A DNA stretch of 64,000 bases from Siphlonurus alternatus (lineage: Eukaryota > Arthropoda > Insecta > Ephemeroptera > Siphlonuridae), in the NCBI GenBank assembly GCA_949825025.1, contig OX463784.1, positions 20,392,761-20,456,760 of the forward strand, given 5' to 3'. The translations under genes and the position numbers were made by a program. How positions within the stretch are numbered: the first letter of the stretch is position 1; each line of letters starts with the position of its first letter. Below are positions 6,668 to 58,006 of the stretch, piece by piece. The notes beneath the pieces are model-generated. The model did no database searches. It had not been told where the DNA came from and saw only the letters and a program-made list of their open reading frames with translations.

Positions 6668-6992
6668 CTCACCATAAGTTTCAACCTTCCGAAACCCTAA
6701 CTTAAGCGTTTCGTGGGCTTATCGTGAACGGGGGTGGCCACGGCCTTGCAATCCTTCTCAGCATTGCCTGCGACTAAGGGAAACGTGGAAACCTTAGCCA
6801 GGATGGACGCAACAGTTTTTATTAATGAACCGGAAGTGCAATGGTCCAAAGCTAGGGGAACTGTATGGTGGAAAATCGCAATGATTTACCTCTGGATGGA
6901 AAACGTAATTTCTGTTGAAAATGGTCACTCAAGATCGGCGCTGCTTAAATTCGGTGATCTGATGAGACCCGGTCAAACGCATTGCGAGAGTA
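6668..6992 (-). mobile_element. 5S-headed SINE copy
   Basis: On the minus strand: a 5S-like head (AGATCACCGAATTTAAGCAG), the central domain (TTTGGACCATTGCACTTCCG, GTTTCCACGTTTCCC) and a tail with GGCCGTGGCCACCCCCGTTC and GAAACGCTTAAGTTAGGGTT. The TTAGTACTTGGATGG part of the 5S head is deleted. The 112-codon open frame across it starts at GTG and is not a gene. Confidence 0.8.
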
Positions 6993-7420
6993 AGAAGCAA
7001 AGTATTTCTTACATCACATTACATCTCGTTGGCATACGTGACACAGTACATGAAAACTGTCATGGACATTAAAAAAATATTTTATCCTGTAATAAATTAA
7101 GTACCCTTTATGAATATATTGATCTAAATAAAAAAAAAATATAAAAATTCATTTCCTAATTAAACGAAAAACACTTTCACATGGTATGTACAACAGTAAT
7201 AACATTATATATTTGCTCTAATTATGTACCTTGTATTGAGGTCTATGTGTGCAAGTAACATACTGTCCAGATGCATTATACTCGATTGGTAACGGTGTTG
7301 GTTACGTCATACTCCAGGAATTTCTACTAACTTGTTCAACCCAAGGCGCCACAAACATCAAGTATATATCCGTTACTGTTACCTATAAATTAAACTTATT
7401 TTATAATTGTTAATTCAAAT

Positions 7421-51728: not shown

Positions 51729-54548
51729 TTAGTTGTTGATTGCTGCTGCGCCGCCTACTGGCCGGTGATTCTTAGCCAAGTAGTCAGCGAAGGCCTGGTA
51801 GGGAGCCGTGGACAGAGGCATCTCCTTCCACAGGTCCGGAGTCAAGTAGGCGTAAGTCTTGCCAATGGCAGCGTACGTGGCCTTGGCTGTAACGATCATA
51901 CAACAGAAGGTCAGATATTGGTCAGAGAAGAAGGTGTTACAGGGTATCTTTTATGTAATAAAACATCCCTCGTATGGAATAATGAGCTATCTGCCTACCA
52001 AAATTAATTTGCAATTACAAGCTACTGTATCTGCTATACCAGGCAAGTGCAATTATAAGGTTAAAGGTAAAGCAGATAGCTCATCATTGCACATGAAATT
52101 TGGTAGCTCATTATTCCAGTCGAGGGACGATAATTCAATGATGCATCATTAGATGGCAATGTTTGATTGTAGCCATCATATTGTGGCCATTGACAGGAGT
52201 TGATTGAAAGAAGCAAAATTAAACCCTGAGGCAAGTGAACTTCATACGCTGCATAACATGTGAAGAAAGAGAGAAAAAGTGAGTCATTTCTCACCAAAGT
52301 TGCCGAGGGTTCCGGTACTGCCGCGGGCAGAGGTGTAGCAATCCTCAATACCGGCCATGGTGAGCAGCTTCTTGGGGACGGGAGCGGACACAATGCCGGT
52401 ACCGCGGGGTGCGGGGATGAGACGCACCAGCACGGAGCCGCACTTGCCAGTTACCTGCAGAATTACACAAGATTAGATTTATGTAGCCAAAAGTAAGTCT
52501 TGATACACTTTTCTCTGACCAATAAGATTATCAGGAAAAAGTGTGAAATATCTTTCTCAATTACACTTTCTTTTTTTCTTTTACTCTGTTCATCAAATTG
52601 TAAGGAATAATTTTAAACAGCTGACTTAAAACAAGTGAAAATCATGCATAATCAGATATTTTTAGCATATACTTTCCTAGTAGTAGAGAATTCTATTAAA
52701 GTTTTGTACAATTATTATAATTAACGAGAACAATTGAAAATTTGAAATAAGATATCCCTGGCAAGGGAGGCTAGGAAGAACGTACCTTGCAGGGCACGGT
52801 ATGGGGCTTGCCGATCTTGTTTCCCCAGTAGCCTCGACGCACGGGCACCACAGAAAGCTTGGCAAGGATGATGGCACCTCGGATGGCGGTAGCCACCTCC
52901 TTGGAGCATTTCACACCAAGACCAATGTGGCCGTTGGAGTCTCCAATAGCTGAGGACAGAGGCCAACGTTGTAACATACCGGTACCAACATTGTAACATA
53001 CCAGTACCAACATTATAACTTTTGAACAATAAATATTAGGAATTAAGTTATTCTTCGATTAAGGCTGAATATTTCTTTAAAAGGTGATCCTCGTGTTTTA
53101 ACAATATCAAAGTCAGGTTTTTCAAGAAATAAAATATTGGGTCACATCAATTAATTTTCAATGTAATTAAATTTTGATCAAATTTTCATTAATTAAAATA
53201 TTTTAAATGTGATTCACCAAAAGTTGAAATTAAGCTGTAACAAAAATCTCAGCCAAACGAGACTTGACAGAGTTTGCTGATAGGACTGGATTTTGTTGAC
53301 TTATTTTTGTAGCCATCTATCGATAAGACTTCACAGTACTAGTCATATATACAGGACTTGATAACGTACCGACAAAGGCCTTGAAACGGGTGCGCTGTCC
53401 TGCACGAGTTTGCTTCTGTACGGGCATGATCTTGAGAACCTCATCCTTGAGCTGGGAGCCAATGAAGAAGTCAATGATTTCGTACTCCTGAAAAATCATC
53501 CACCAATCAGAACACTCGCCTCCCTGTTTACACCAATCACAATCAGAGTAGCATTTTTTTTTTGTAAATGTTTGAAAGGTGAAATAGCCTTCAAGCAATA
53601 ACACTTAAAGGCCTTGAAATTTTCAATTATTTTATGCATATTAAAATGACACAATGGTTAAAAATATCCATTATGGGGTAAGGAATGCAATAATACATGT
53701 TTTTCATACTAAAATTACTACTACTACTACTACAAAATTCCATTTATACTTCACTATTATGTAATTTACATTAATTTTCAGTATATCCTTGAAAACAACA
53801 TAAAGTAAGCATTACGCCCAATTCCCTGCTCACTGAATCAAAATAACATCAGAGACCTCTATGTTTTATAGCAAGATATGGGTTATTTTTTTTAGCGCTG
53901 CTTCACGAGGCATACATAACAGTTGTTCTAACCTTCTGAAGCTCGGAAAAATGTAATAAAAATTCTGGTCAACACGGAAGTTGTAGTAACACAAAAACAC
54001 ATTGTCAATAGGACGATTTGTACAGTAAATTGTGTAAAAATAAAACTCAAGACAGGGCATCTATTTAGCATTAACTACTTTACTTGACTCGTTGTCTGAC
54101 AGCATGAAGAGAGCAGAGAAAGAATCCTTTCTCTATTGGCTTGCTAGAAGTAAAATGGCTTAAATGCCTACGTGGGCATAAGAAAAGAAGAAGAAGAGTA
54201 GGATGACTAATGATTTAGCAGGTAGTTCTACTTTTAACAAGCTGGATTTTTGCTCGAAAACATATGAAAAATGTTCCTCGCTCTGGAAAAACTGAAGCTA
54301 CTTCTTCTTACCTTGATGGGCAGGGAGAAGAGGTAGATCTCCTCCAGGGTCTGGATCTTGCCGTCACGCACCAGACGTCCCAGCTTGGTGACGGGCACCC
54401 ACTCCTTCTCGGCCTCCTTGCCACGACCTCTGCCACGACCGCGACCTCTGCCCCTGGGACGCCCACCGCGACCTCGAGCACCAAAACCTCCTCTGAATCC
54501 TCCTCGATCACCGCCTCGCTGGCCACCGGCTGGAGCTGCGTCCGCCAT
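51729..54548 (-). CDS. RPS2: 40S ribosomal protein S2 (uS5), 5 coding exons, 278 aa
   Basis: The coding exons are 54312-54548, 53370-53487, 52786-52949, 52295-52454 and 51729-51886, all GT/AG and phase-consistent, giving 278 codons plus TAA. The N-terminus (about residues 8-43) is an RG/RGG-rich tract, as in animal RPS2. Then follow [18 protein letters not shown] and [20 protein letters not shown] (the S5 RNA-binding fold). [20 protein letters not shown] and [19 protein letters not shown] come next. The C-terminal S5 domain shows [19 protein letters not shown] and a YLTPDLWKE segment. Human RPS2 is 293 aa, and the difference lies mostly in the tails. The protein sits near the mRNA entry channel of the small subunit and affects decoding. 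The ATG is the first codon of its exon, directly after an AG acceptor, so the 5' UTR must lie in an upstream exon. Confidence 0.98.
51965..52129. mobile_element. foldback family F4 copy in RPS2 last intron
   Basis: Ends CATCCCTCGT...GGAATAATGAGCTATCTGCC and the inverted ATTCC...CGAGGGACG match the better-preserved copy at 42882-43081. The interior retains the GCAGATAGCTCAT arm. No coding capacity. It lies in the intron between exons 52295-52454 and 51729-51886, clear of the splice sites. Confidence 0.75.
52963..53020. repeat. 22-bp minisatellite in RPS2 intron 3
   Basis: Two full copies and one partial copy of a 22-bp unit beginning CCAACATTGTAACATACC. The array starts 14 bp from the acceptor of exon 52786-52949, so it occupies the usual polypyrimidine/branch region. 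Confidence 0.75.
53566..53690 (-). ncRNA. H/ACA box snoRNA in RPS2 intron 2 (copy 2)
   Basis: A paralogue of the snoRNA at 55415-55541, with the same fold. Hairpin 1 has lower stem TGCAT/ATGCA and upper stem CATAATGG/CCATTGTG, followed by H box AAAATA (53628-53633). Hairpin 2 has lower stem TTGAAA/TTTCAA, identical pocket arms ATTTCAAG and TATTTCACC, and upper stem GCCTTTAAG/CTTGAAGGC with the same loop. ACA (53569-53571) lies 3 nt from the end. Compared with copy 1, stem positions change while pairing is mostly kept, and the 3' pocket is invariant, which is the pattern of a selected RNA. The 3' end is about 78 nt from the acceptor of coding exon 2 (53487). Confidence 0.82.
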
Positions 54549-54887
54549 CTGTTGGGAAAATCGTCAACTATCAGCATCCTGACAATGTAGGTTCAATGCT
54601 AAAATAAACTTTTGCAGCTTCTACTTCATAAAAAGTAATGATAAAAAAATAACTTGACAAGAGTTATCACATCCAATCACGACTTTTGTTGTGTGTTTAA
54701 TGGCTCAGATTATATATAATCAGAGCATCAAAAATACTAAAATAATTGGGACTATTAACAGCTTCTTTGCTGAAAATGTGCATGTACTTAGACCAAAATA
54801 TGCACCAACATTATCACTCTGCATATTGATGACACAGCTGCAATTTTGACATGAGGTGCTTTTCCATGGAGCAATGTTGAGCGGGGG

Positions 54888-55030
54888 TTGGTAGGGCGAG
54901 AAAGACACACTTGCTTAAATGTCACATGGCAGCCATTTATCGGGAAAAAAATCTCTGCGGAAAAGCAATTTTTTCAAACAACATGACTGTCATATGATAT
55001 TGAAGCAAGGGTGCTTTTCTCGCCCTACCA
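54888..55030. mobile_element. foldback element in RPS2 intron 1
   Basis: Arms TTGGTAGGGCGAGAAA and TTTTCTCGCCCTACCAA, extended by CTTGCTT / AAGCAAG, enclose about 85 bp. A small MITE-like palindrome with no other clear copy in the window. Confidence 0.6.
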
Positions 55031-55185
55031 AGTTGTTTTTTTCTCTGATGATAGAAATAAATTTAATGCATTTGTCATATTTCACACTGCTGGCATCCTA
55101 ATTTTGTTGCCATTTGGAGGAAGTCAGATTTTGCTGCTGCACCATCAATAGTATGTGCATAACGGGATCATATCATACATGGGGC

Positions 55186-55337
55186 AAAGGAGCTTTCACA
55201 TAACCGAAATTTGCTACGGCGCTCCACAGAAAAACCAAGCTCTTCTTGATTTTTTTTACACAGCTATATTTTCTGTGTGTTGCAGCGTGAACTATTTAAC
55301 GCAGCAATTTTCGATCACGTGAAAGTATCTCAAAGGA
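55186..55337. mobile_element. second foldback element in RPS2 intron 1
   Basis: Imperfect arms GCTTTCACATAACCGAAATT and AATTTTCGATCACGTGAAAG enclose a GC-richer centre. The arms are more diverged than those of the neighbouring foldback, so it is probably older. Confidence 0.5.
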
Positions 55338-55414
55338 GAGCATCAACCCAATATCTTGAGAGCAATGTTGGTAGATTTACCGGTATTAATGTATAATTAT
55401 TATGTACAAAATAA

Positions 55415-55541
55415 ATTTGTATGAAAGGTGAAATAGCCACCAAGCAATAACACTTGAAGGCCTTGAAATTTTCAGTTAATTTATGCATCTTAAAATGACA
55501 CAATGGTTAGTAACTATCCATCATGAGGTAAGAGATGCATT
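55415..55541 (-). ncRNA. H/ACA box snoRNA in RPS2 intron 1 (copy 1)
   Basis: Read on the minus strand, this folds into the two-hairpin H/ACA form. Hairpin 1 has lower stem ATGCATC/GATGCAT (7 bp), an 8+9 nt internal pocket and upper stem CATGATGG/CCATTGTG, and is followed by H box AAATTA (55477-55482). Hairpin 2 has lower stem TGAAA/TTTCA, pocket arms ATTTCAAG and TATTTCACC, and upper stem GCCTTCAAG/CTTGGTGGC with loop TGTTATTG. It ends in box ACA (55418-55420) exactly 3 nt before the inferred 3' end. Pocket-to-box spacing is 14-16 nt in both hairpins, as the family requires. The 3' pocket can pair with 18S rRNA GGUGAAAUUCUUGG. Vertebrate RPS2 introns also host H/ACA RNAs (SNORA10, SNORA64); orthology is not shown. 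Processing is expected from the spliced RPS2 intron. Confidence 0.82.
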
Positions 55542-56012
55542 ACATTTTCATACAACCAATTAGAAAAATACAGGCTGCAGAGTAGTTCTATCATGGGCTA
55601 CAGACACATGATAGAACAATAAGCTACAGAACTACGATGGCTTGCCTGCCCATGTTGCCTGCCAATGTTTTATATAGATGCTTAAACTATGCAGATTACG
55701 CAGAATAATTATGCAGTTTTAGCTTATAAAGAATCTTATAGTTTTTACAGCAATTTCTTACACTTGATATAATAGAGCTTATTGTAACAAAATAATTTTT
55801 CTGGCATCCATGAAAAATCAGAATGCAGAGCTGATGCAGAGTGCAAAACGTGGTTCATATTTTTAAGATTTATAGAACAATTTCTGATTGAAAACAAAAA
55901 CTTATTATTTATAAACATGGTTTAGGTTTTATAGTTTATATTAAGAATGACATAATTTATTGAAAGTAAAGGATTACCAAGATAATTAGAAATAACAAGG
56001 AGCAAAATTTAC

Positions 56013-56034
56013 CTGTGGTCTTGTTGATGCAAAG
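56013..56034 (-). promoter_or_regulatory. RPS2: probable RPS2 non-coding exon 1 with 5'-TOP-like start
   Basis: RPS2 needs an upstream exon because its ATG follows directly on an acceptor. The best donor upstream is CCACAG/gtaaat, with the boundary at 56013/56012. About 22 nt upstream of it is TTCTTTGC on the minus strand, a plausible start at C followed by pyrimidines, the TOP signature of ribosomal protein mRNAs. A TTTTATT motif lies about 30 nt further upstream. The resulting 22-nt 5' UTR and ~1.46 kb first intron are typical of ribosomal protein genes. The exact start is inference. Confidence 0.5.
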
Positions 56035-58006
56035 AATAACAATTACCAACGTAACAAAAATAAAACTGGAAAATCGTTAAAATCAATACCAGGAATTTTT
56101 ACTAAATTTAGGGACATATAACTAAAATCATAGATGACGCAAGTAGGCCGAGTAGGCTAAAAATATTGTAAACACCGCGAACAGCATTTACATATTTAAA
56201 AATACAAGATATAATTTCAGAGATATAATTTTATAAAATATTAAATTTATATATATTTAAATCGCCATTTAATCATTAACCTAGCGCAATTAATATTAAT
56301 ATATTCAATTAATAAATATAGAGAAAATTCAAACTTTTTTTTTAATGAAAATTGCTTGTTGCTGACCTAACACCCCCAAAAGTTTTGAGTGAACTTGACT
56401 GAACTCTTTATTTCGCACGACACATCTCGTGTCTCGCCGCCGCCGTGTCTTTTGTTCCTATTCATAGCAAGTCTACCTCTCTCTTCAAGAAACACCAGAC
56501 CCAAGTTATTTACGCGTTTTACCTCGAAAAACTTTTCTGTTTTTATTTTTATGTGCCGTTGAAAAAAATATAAGTCCTATTTTCTTTTCAGTATAATAAT
56601 ACTTTTACAAAAAAAAATCCACTCTTTCTGTCTCCCTTATATATGTACATTGCATACATATTCTACAGCAATCATGATTACTTAGCTTAAATTTTACTCG
56701 CACACTTCATAATTCTTATAACAGAAAAAGTTTCAACGAAAAAAACATTTTTTTTTAACAAAAAAAATATTTCAAATGAATAATTCCTTTGTGTGACATA
56801 ATAAAAAACTTAATTTATAAATTTTCATTACAGAAGCCACTTCGCGGCTTGTTAAGAAAAAAAAAATGTAAAAAATCTTTTTTTTTTCTTTTATCAAAGT
56901 AAATAATTAAATTTTATATCTTTGAGGTAAATTATATAATAAAAATTAGAAACCTAATAGTAGTAATGAGAGTACAGAGTAGATATTATTGTTTAGAGAC
57001 AAAAATTAGCAAAATGCTTAATATATAATTAATAATATTAATAAATATACTGTTTACAATTTTTAAATAAAATTTAAGAAAATAATATGCAACACAATTA
57101 TAATTTTACTATAAATCGTATTATTAATTATATGTTTATAAGAAGCTTTAAAATTCGAATATAATTATTAATAATTAATAATATATAGACCCACTGATAC
57201 AGATAAAATATCTTACACAACACAAAAATTAAAGGGCACCTCTGCAATCGAGATTTTGAATAATTAATAATCAATTAACGTATTGTGTTAGATATTATCA
57301 TATAATAATAATTTTATTCTGTTTTATGTATTTATTTTAGATATATGTTGAATTAATTAATTCTTTCTACTTTCTTACGCAAATATTTTACACAATGTAT
57401 AAAATATATAAAGAAAAAAAGTAATAGTATCTTAATTATTATTAAAATAATTGAATTAAAAATGCCTTTACAATAATTTGATTTCGTTTATAAACCAAAT
57501 ATATTTAATCAACCATAATATAACGAGAAGTAGTGATAGTCTTCTTTTTCTATATAATAATTAAATAATTATTATCCTTGCATATACTGCAGAGAAGCAT
57601 TCAAAGCTCCATACATTTTATCGACTATAAGTTATATCCATAACTCGACAAAACATTTTAAATTATTAAAAGTTGATTCATGCAATATACCTGTATGATA
57701 TTGCAATCTATTATAATATCCTTCAATAATAAAAGAAAACATAATAACTCAAATAAGATATAATTTTTAAGGTAATCGGATCATGTCTATCTTTCTTTAT
57801 CCTTACTCTCCTGTGTATTCGTTTCAAATAATGTAATTTCATGTTGAGAAAGAGAAAAGAAAAGAAAAGGATCTCAACTCAAGTGGAGTCTTCTTATCGT
57901 TATGATTACATTGCCTCTCGCTACCAGGCGACATCCATGTCAAAACCAATTCTCAGGAGCGTGCGTGATTGCCTTTGAACGTGCCTAACTCTCCTTCCCT
58001 CCACTT

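Follow-up and report, generated by a model that had tools for sequence, protein, structure and literature searches.

Among the closest described counterparts of the elements considered here are vertebrate box H/ACA small nucleolar RNAs (snoRNAs). Human 18S ribosomal RNA (rRNA) is pseudouridylated at U966 to 89% (PMC6182160) under the guidance of SNORA14A (PMC9886955), and intron 5 of chicken RPS2 carries an RNA entered under U64/ACA22 with 28S-4393 as its target (PMC2653536); the chicken paper places the ACA14 site at 18S-927, a numbering that is not reconciled with U966. Here a stretch of 64,000 nucleotides (nt) from Siphlonurus alternatus (Ephemeroptera; contig OX463784.1, positions 20,392,761 to 20,456,760 of the forward strand; hereafter the window) is considered, in which two segments of about 125 nt, copies A and B, lie in introns 2 and 1 of the RPS2 gene. 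With a probability of roughly 0.92, A and B are paralogous box H/ACA snoRNAs that would guide modification of U965 in 18S rRNA and belong to a family copied among introns; that two H/ACA snoRNA genes are present is in itself very probable.

The two copies are 88% identical over 125 nt, and in the minimum free energy (MFE) folds of the minus strand each adopts a hairpin-hinge-hairpin-tail arrangement, with one large internal loop in each hairpin. The hinge is single-stranded and holds an ANANNA motif, and the tail holds an ACA that stands 3 nt ahead of the 3' end chosen for each copy, an end that may differ from the mature one. From the upper stem of these folds to the ACA there are 14 nt in both copies, and to the H box candidate 14, 16 or 17 nt in A and 16 nt in B. 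None of 200 shuffled sequences is as stable as copy A (z-score -4.06; opposite strand -0.84, 34/200), and two of 200 are as stable as copy B (z-score -3.49; opposite strand -2.18, 5/200). When each of the 2556 ACA sites in the 64-kb window, counting both strands, was tried at nine lengths against a descriptor of two hairpins, one pocket each, with H box and ACA 13-17 nt from the upper stem, three passed, namely A (-30.0), B (-32.6) and one weak site, a count that gauges specificity and not sensitivity, the descriptor having been drawn up after the fold was seen. The weak site (-18.9 kcal/mol; minus strand, 3' end at 56443) lies upstream of the presumed RPS2 leader exon and is probably a chance occurrence.

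The first-pass annotation of this DNA had described two paralogous H/ACA snoRNAs in successive RPS2 introns, with the hairpin-H box-hairpin-ACA order and proper pocket spacing, and that description stands on the sense strand of introns 1 and 2. Its statement that the surrounding sequence is unrelated holds for the 120-nt 3' flanks (263 of 300 shuffles align equally well) and not fully for the 120-nt 5' flanks, which are weakly alike (10/300). Likewise, the identity it ascribed to the pocket arms is true of the 3' pocket, but in the 5' pocket two positions of the left arm vary between the copies, the inner base (CTTACCC vs CTTACCT) and one outer base. It had further taken the stem differences between A and B, with pairing said to be mostly retained, as direct evidence of selected structure, and this was an overstatement: no pair is changed on both sides between the two, the stem changes are one-sided or pair-breaking, the example offered itself breaks a pair (U-A to UxU), and double-sided changes appear only once a third copy, C, is added.

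This third copy is one of several further family members. DNA searches of the animal's own genome (455.7 Mb, 102 contigs; E-value up to 0.001) revealed at least six loci, query B leading to three places and query D to three others, all on one contig; these counts are lower bounds, and more divergent members may have escaped the searches. By reading, copies C, D and E occupy three different introns of ATP5PO, a gene recognized by an OSCP domain match (E-value 1.2e-36, with a query joined by hand), and copy F is situated roughly 5 kb upstream of an exon that gives a partial match to calponin homology (E-value 6.9e-5, below the Pfam cut-off), its host gene being unproven. Sense-strand placement in introns, a trait of animal-type H/ACA RNAs, is thus found for A and B in RPS2 and, by reading, for C, D and E in ATP5PO, with expression of the hosts assumed. 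A covariance model built from A, B and C matches D at an E-value of 7e-9 and E at 5e-8, neither of which was used in the model; of its eight matches up to an E-value of 1, the three beyond A to E are weak (0.054 to 0.27). The exact core pattern of the RNA has no match in viral contigs, and a search for relatives in plasmids returned only two chance matches.

With C included, paired changes in the stems come to light. Across A, B and C four pairs are changed on both sides, and 94.4% of cells pair, each value being reached by 4 of 500 shuffles, while frames slid along the alignment are 34-51% paired. The 5' hairpin, compared over five copies, shows three double-sided pairs (8/500 shuffles), and RNAalifold applied to A, B and C finds the upper stem of each hairpin together with the lower stem of the 5' one. 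Copies D, E and F have a common fold and are too alike to reveal covariation.

The guide itself fits one place in 18S rRNA best. The 3' pockets of A, B and C have in common the right arm AUUUCACC and the left arm UUCAA, and the predicted target is GGUGAAAU[UC]UUGGA at position 965 of the animal's own 18S rRNA (also written AGAGGUGAAAU[U]CUUGGA), where a pocket at the proper distance from its box would pair with rRNA on either side of an unpaired UN. In a scan of 929 uridines of the own ribosomal DNA (rDNA; locus L084, 18S at 174-2036) this site scores 30.4 with A and B and 32.6 with C, the next site scores 20.4, and no shuffled guide among the 400 made for each pocket does as well; the guide arms of A and B are identical and constitute one test, not two, and C has the same right arm. 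A, B and C also have this site as their best one among 2238 uridines in seven rRNA pieces, taken from eukaryotic rDNA in GTDB contigs, a fit matched by two in 1000 shuffled guides for A and by one in 1000 for C. Given the near-equal numbering and an invariant motif, position 965 probably corresponds to human U966. The bacterial-labelled GTDB contigs L024, L029, L032, L035, L039, L044 and L049 carry eukaryotic 18S genes, some with 28S, and these records therefore contain eukaryotic DNA. In the own genome, an 18S fragment gives five matches, at C6 1.85-1.92 Mb and on C72; after the 18S gene, L084 has exactly 5000 N and L085 has 3500 N, and the own 28S is thus unreadable; a 28S fragment used as query brought no match, which is no evidence of its absence.

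Taken together, these data suggest a model in which A and B would be released once introns 2 and 1 of RPS2 have been spliced out, each as a stable RNA of about 125 nt bound by dyskerin, Nhp2, Nop10 and Gar1, a trait of the class that is predicted here for both. The pocket of the 3' hairpin would pair with the 18S sequences flanking one uridine, U965, which dyskerin would convert to pseudouridine. Copy C, from its ATP5PO intron, would offer the same guide, and the family may have spread by copying between introns.

Several observations weigh against this model. The strict MFE descriptor misses C, D, E and F, because 0 of the 526 ACA sites in their loci (L017 and L075) pass. The covariation test rests on three sequences and on a structure drawn from B, and further pair types occur at the shuffled level (361/500 for A, B and C; 316/500 for the 5' hairpin of five copies). 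RNAalifold on A, B and C omits the 3' lower stem, which in C is weak, the drawn fold reaching -19.5 as compared with -26.1 for the MFE fold. Tested on the own 18S locus, neither the 5' pockets (A 231, B 247, C 197 and D 192 of 400 shuffles as good) nor the 3' pockets of D (72/400) and F (163/400) surpass shuffled guides.

The behaviour of D, E and F is of separate interest. In these copies the 5' hairpin is preserved, as is the left arm UUCAA, but the right arm of the 18S guide is altered. Since UUCAA is kept, the best-scoring site for the 3' pocket of D and of E is still the 18S one (25.8) in one of the three 18S pieces among the seven rRNA pieces; in the own 18S the site is third for D (17.8 vs 22.1) and outside the top five for F. 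Because the pockets tested find no fit in the own 18S and the own 28S cannot be read, D to F are so far orphan guides. All six copies found carry the same left arm, CUUACC, in the 5' pocket. Against the seven rRNA pieces the 5' pockets reach top scores of 20-23, mostly at different sites for each copy, and in the partial 28S pieces no site leads for all copies, both comparisons having been made without a shuffle control. A 28S motif considered as a possible target of the 5' pocket was dropped, since neither the L039 fragment nor the readable part of the own rDNA contains it. As CUUACC is unchanged in six copies while D, E and F altered the 18S guide, it is conceivable, if doubtful, that the 5' pocket is the family's constant part and serves a second target (28S, small nuclear RNA or mRNA), with D to F as target-switched guides, two of them in one host gene. 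In a bolder form of this idea, CUUACC may act on 5' splice sites (consensus GGUAAG).

Comparison with Rfam 15 gave no match at gathering in the whole window. With E-values up to 5 in positions 53000-56500, the only match that overlaps a copy is ceN36-1 on A (E-value 4.3), and the best scores there (snR13, tsr26, MIR828) fall outside both copies; with E-values up to 2, copies C, D and E remain without a match, one unrelated hit lying elsewhere. Homology to SNORA14, and likewise to SNORA64 or SNORA10, was therefore not found at either setting applied to the window or to 53000-56500. We take Rfam 15 to include SNORA10, SNORA14 and SNORA64, and SNORA10 to be another RNA hosted by vertebrate RPS2.

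It is against this record that an ancient host relation has to be judged. The first-pass annotation had proposed that the tie to the RNAs of vertebrate RPS2 may be ancient, and the identity of the host gene speaks for A and B being orthologues of U64/SNORA64 or SNORA10, given the chicken intron 5 RNA. However, neither family is matched, and the 3' pocket, which alone is covered by this comparison, is directed to 18S 965 and not to 28S-4393; this predicted site, probably the one that SNORA14A guides in human, speaks against an origin from vertebrate RPS2 U64, and orthology with these RNAs is highly improbable. A dispersed repeat, that is, a short interspersed element (SINE) or a miniature inverted-repeat transposable element (MITE) that folds by chance, might likewise place several copies in unrelated introns, and the hairpin at 54888-55031 beside copy B is such a repeat. 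However, the family occupies at least six places in 455.7 Mb as against 63 matches for this neighbour (533 candidates, 40 scored), and five of its six copies lie within RPS2 or ATP5PO introns in the sense orientation, so that a chance-folding repeat is scarcely credible.

A more substantial concern is that A or B, or both, may be dead or redundant products of duplication, with C or some other copy attending to the 18S site. The presence of two nearly identical guides in a single host invites the thought of redundancy, the inner end of the 5' lower stem in A has UxU and CxA in place of two pairs, and D and F demonstrate that the guide has changed within the family. However, in both A and B the guide letters of the 3' pocket are all intact, as are the two boxes, and the fold is stabler than nearly all shuffles; a dead or redundant state of either is unlikely. 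The reading of A and B as paralogous guides of 18S U965 is accordingly the one retained here.

The host gene, RPS2 (uS5), lies on the minus strand of the window and was identified by homologue search, by tblastn with arthropod uS5 and by inspection of splice sites; the closest named RPS2 proteins are mostly arthropod. A short leader exon, 56034-56013, is proposed because of its pyrimidine start and GT donor. The features are collected below.

Table 1. Positions of the RPS2 exons and introns, of the snoRNA copies and of their boxes and pocket arms (window coordinates unless another locus is given)
Feature	Position	Strand or orientation	Basis or remark
Putative RPS2 exon 1, short pyrimidine-start leader	56013..56034	-	by inspection only
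RPS2 intron 1 (intron of the 5' untranslated region)	56012-54549	-	contains copy B, sense
RPS2 exon 2, carries ATG	54312..54548	-	tblastn with arthropod uS5, splice-site inspection, homologues
RPS2 intron 2	54311-53488	-	contains copy A, sense
RPS2 exon 3	53370..53487	-	tblastn; ends by splice-site inspection
Copy A, predicted box H/ACA snoRNA, RPS2 intron 2	53566..53691	-	fold z-score, H/ACA descriptor, match to model built partly from A
Copy A H box candidate AAAATA (ANANNA)	53628..53633	-	sequence, spacing
Copy A 3' pocket left arm UUCAA	53614..53618	-	pairs 18S UUGGA (one G-U) 3' of target UC
Copy A 3' pocket right arm AUUUCACC	53578..53585	-	complements 18S GGUGAAAU just 5' of target U
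Copy A ACA box	53569..53571	-	sequence
Copy B, predicted box H/ACA snoRNA, RPS2 intron 1	55415..55541	-	fold z-score, H/ACA descriptor, 88% identity to A
Copy B H box candidate AAATTA	55477..55482	-	sequence, spacing
Copy B 3' pocket left arm UUCAA	55463..55467	-	pocket scans against rRNA
Copy B 3' pocket right arm AUUUCACC	55427..55434	-	pocket scans against rRNA
Copy B ACA box	55418..55420	-	sequence
Copy C	L017 4541-4665	sense in ATP5PO intron	74% identity to B
Copy D	L017 5723-5850	sense in ATP5PO intron	93% alike to E
Copy E	L017 7520-7648	sense in ATP5PO intron	93% alike to D
Copy F	C7:21031966-21032090 (L075 1501-1625)	+	95% like D

The hairpin at 54888-55031 in RPS2 intron 1 has 63-nt arms that are 78% complementary (fold z-score -12.16), and is one copy of a dispersed palindromic, MITE-like repeat whose 63 genome matches are a lower bound. 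Short open frames near window positions 6734-7072 and beside copy F (L075, about 568-860) are alike by eye only, and perhaps belong to one dispersed element.

No earlier report of the A to F family was found in the open-access literature, most subscription journals being outside the scope of that search. The present data thus add a snoRNA family with no Rfam match and a predicted 18S target, and place it both in a ribosomal protein gene and in a mitochondrial ATP synthase gene; D to F, in turn, provide a small test case for the decay or change of a guide pocket after duplication. As for relatives, A and B resemble SNORA14A/ACA14 in class and, by predicted pairing, in the 18S site, but the parental gene of the human RNA is POR (PMC9886955) and the likeness does not extend to an Rfam-level match. 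They share class and host gene with the U64/SNORA64 of vertebrate RPS2, and differ in the target of the 3' pocket from its chicken representative (PMC2653536), again with no match in Rfam. The closest parallels in organization come from other hosts: in Suberites sponges, sister H/ACA copies, 94% alike in S. domuncula, lie in neighbouring introns of RPL13A, another host with another RNA (PMC3412847), and in Drosophila the mfl gene harbours DmSnR60 a-d as tandem isoforms, one per intron, which are of the C/D class (PMC1821038). The mechanism proposed for the Siphlonurus family is thus the ordinary, textbook one of H/ACA RNAs, and sister copies in the introns of one host are an arrangement already known.

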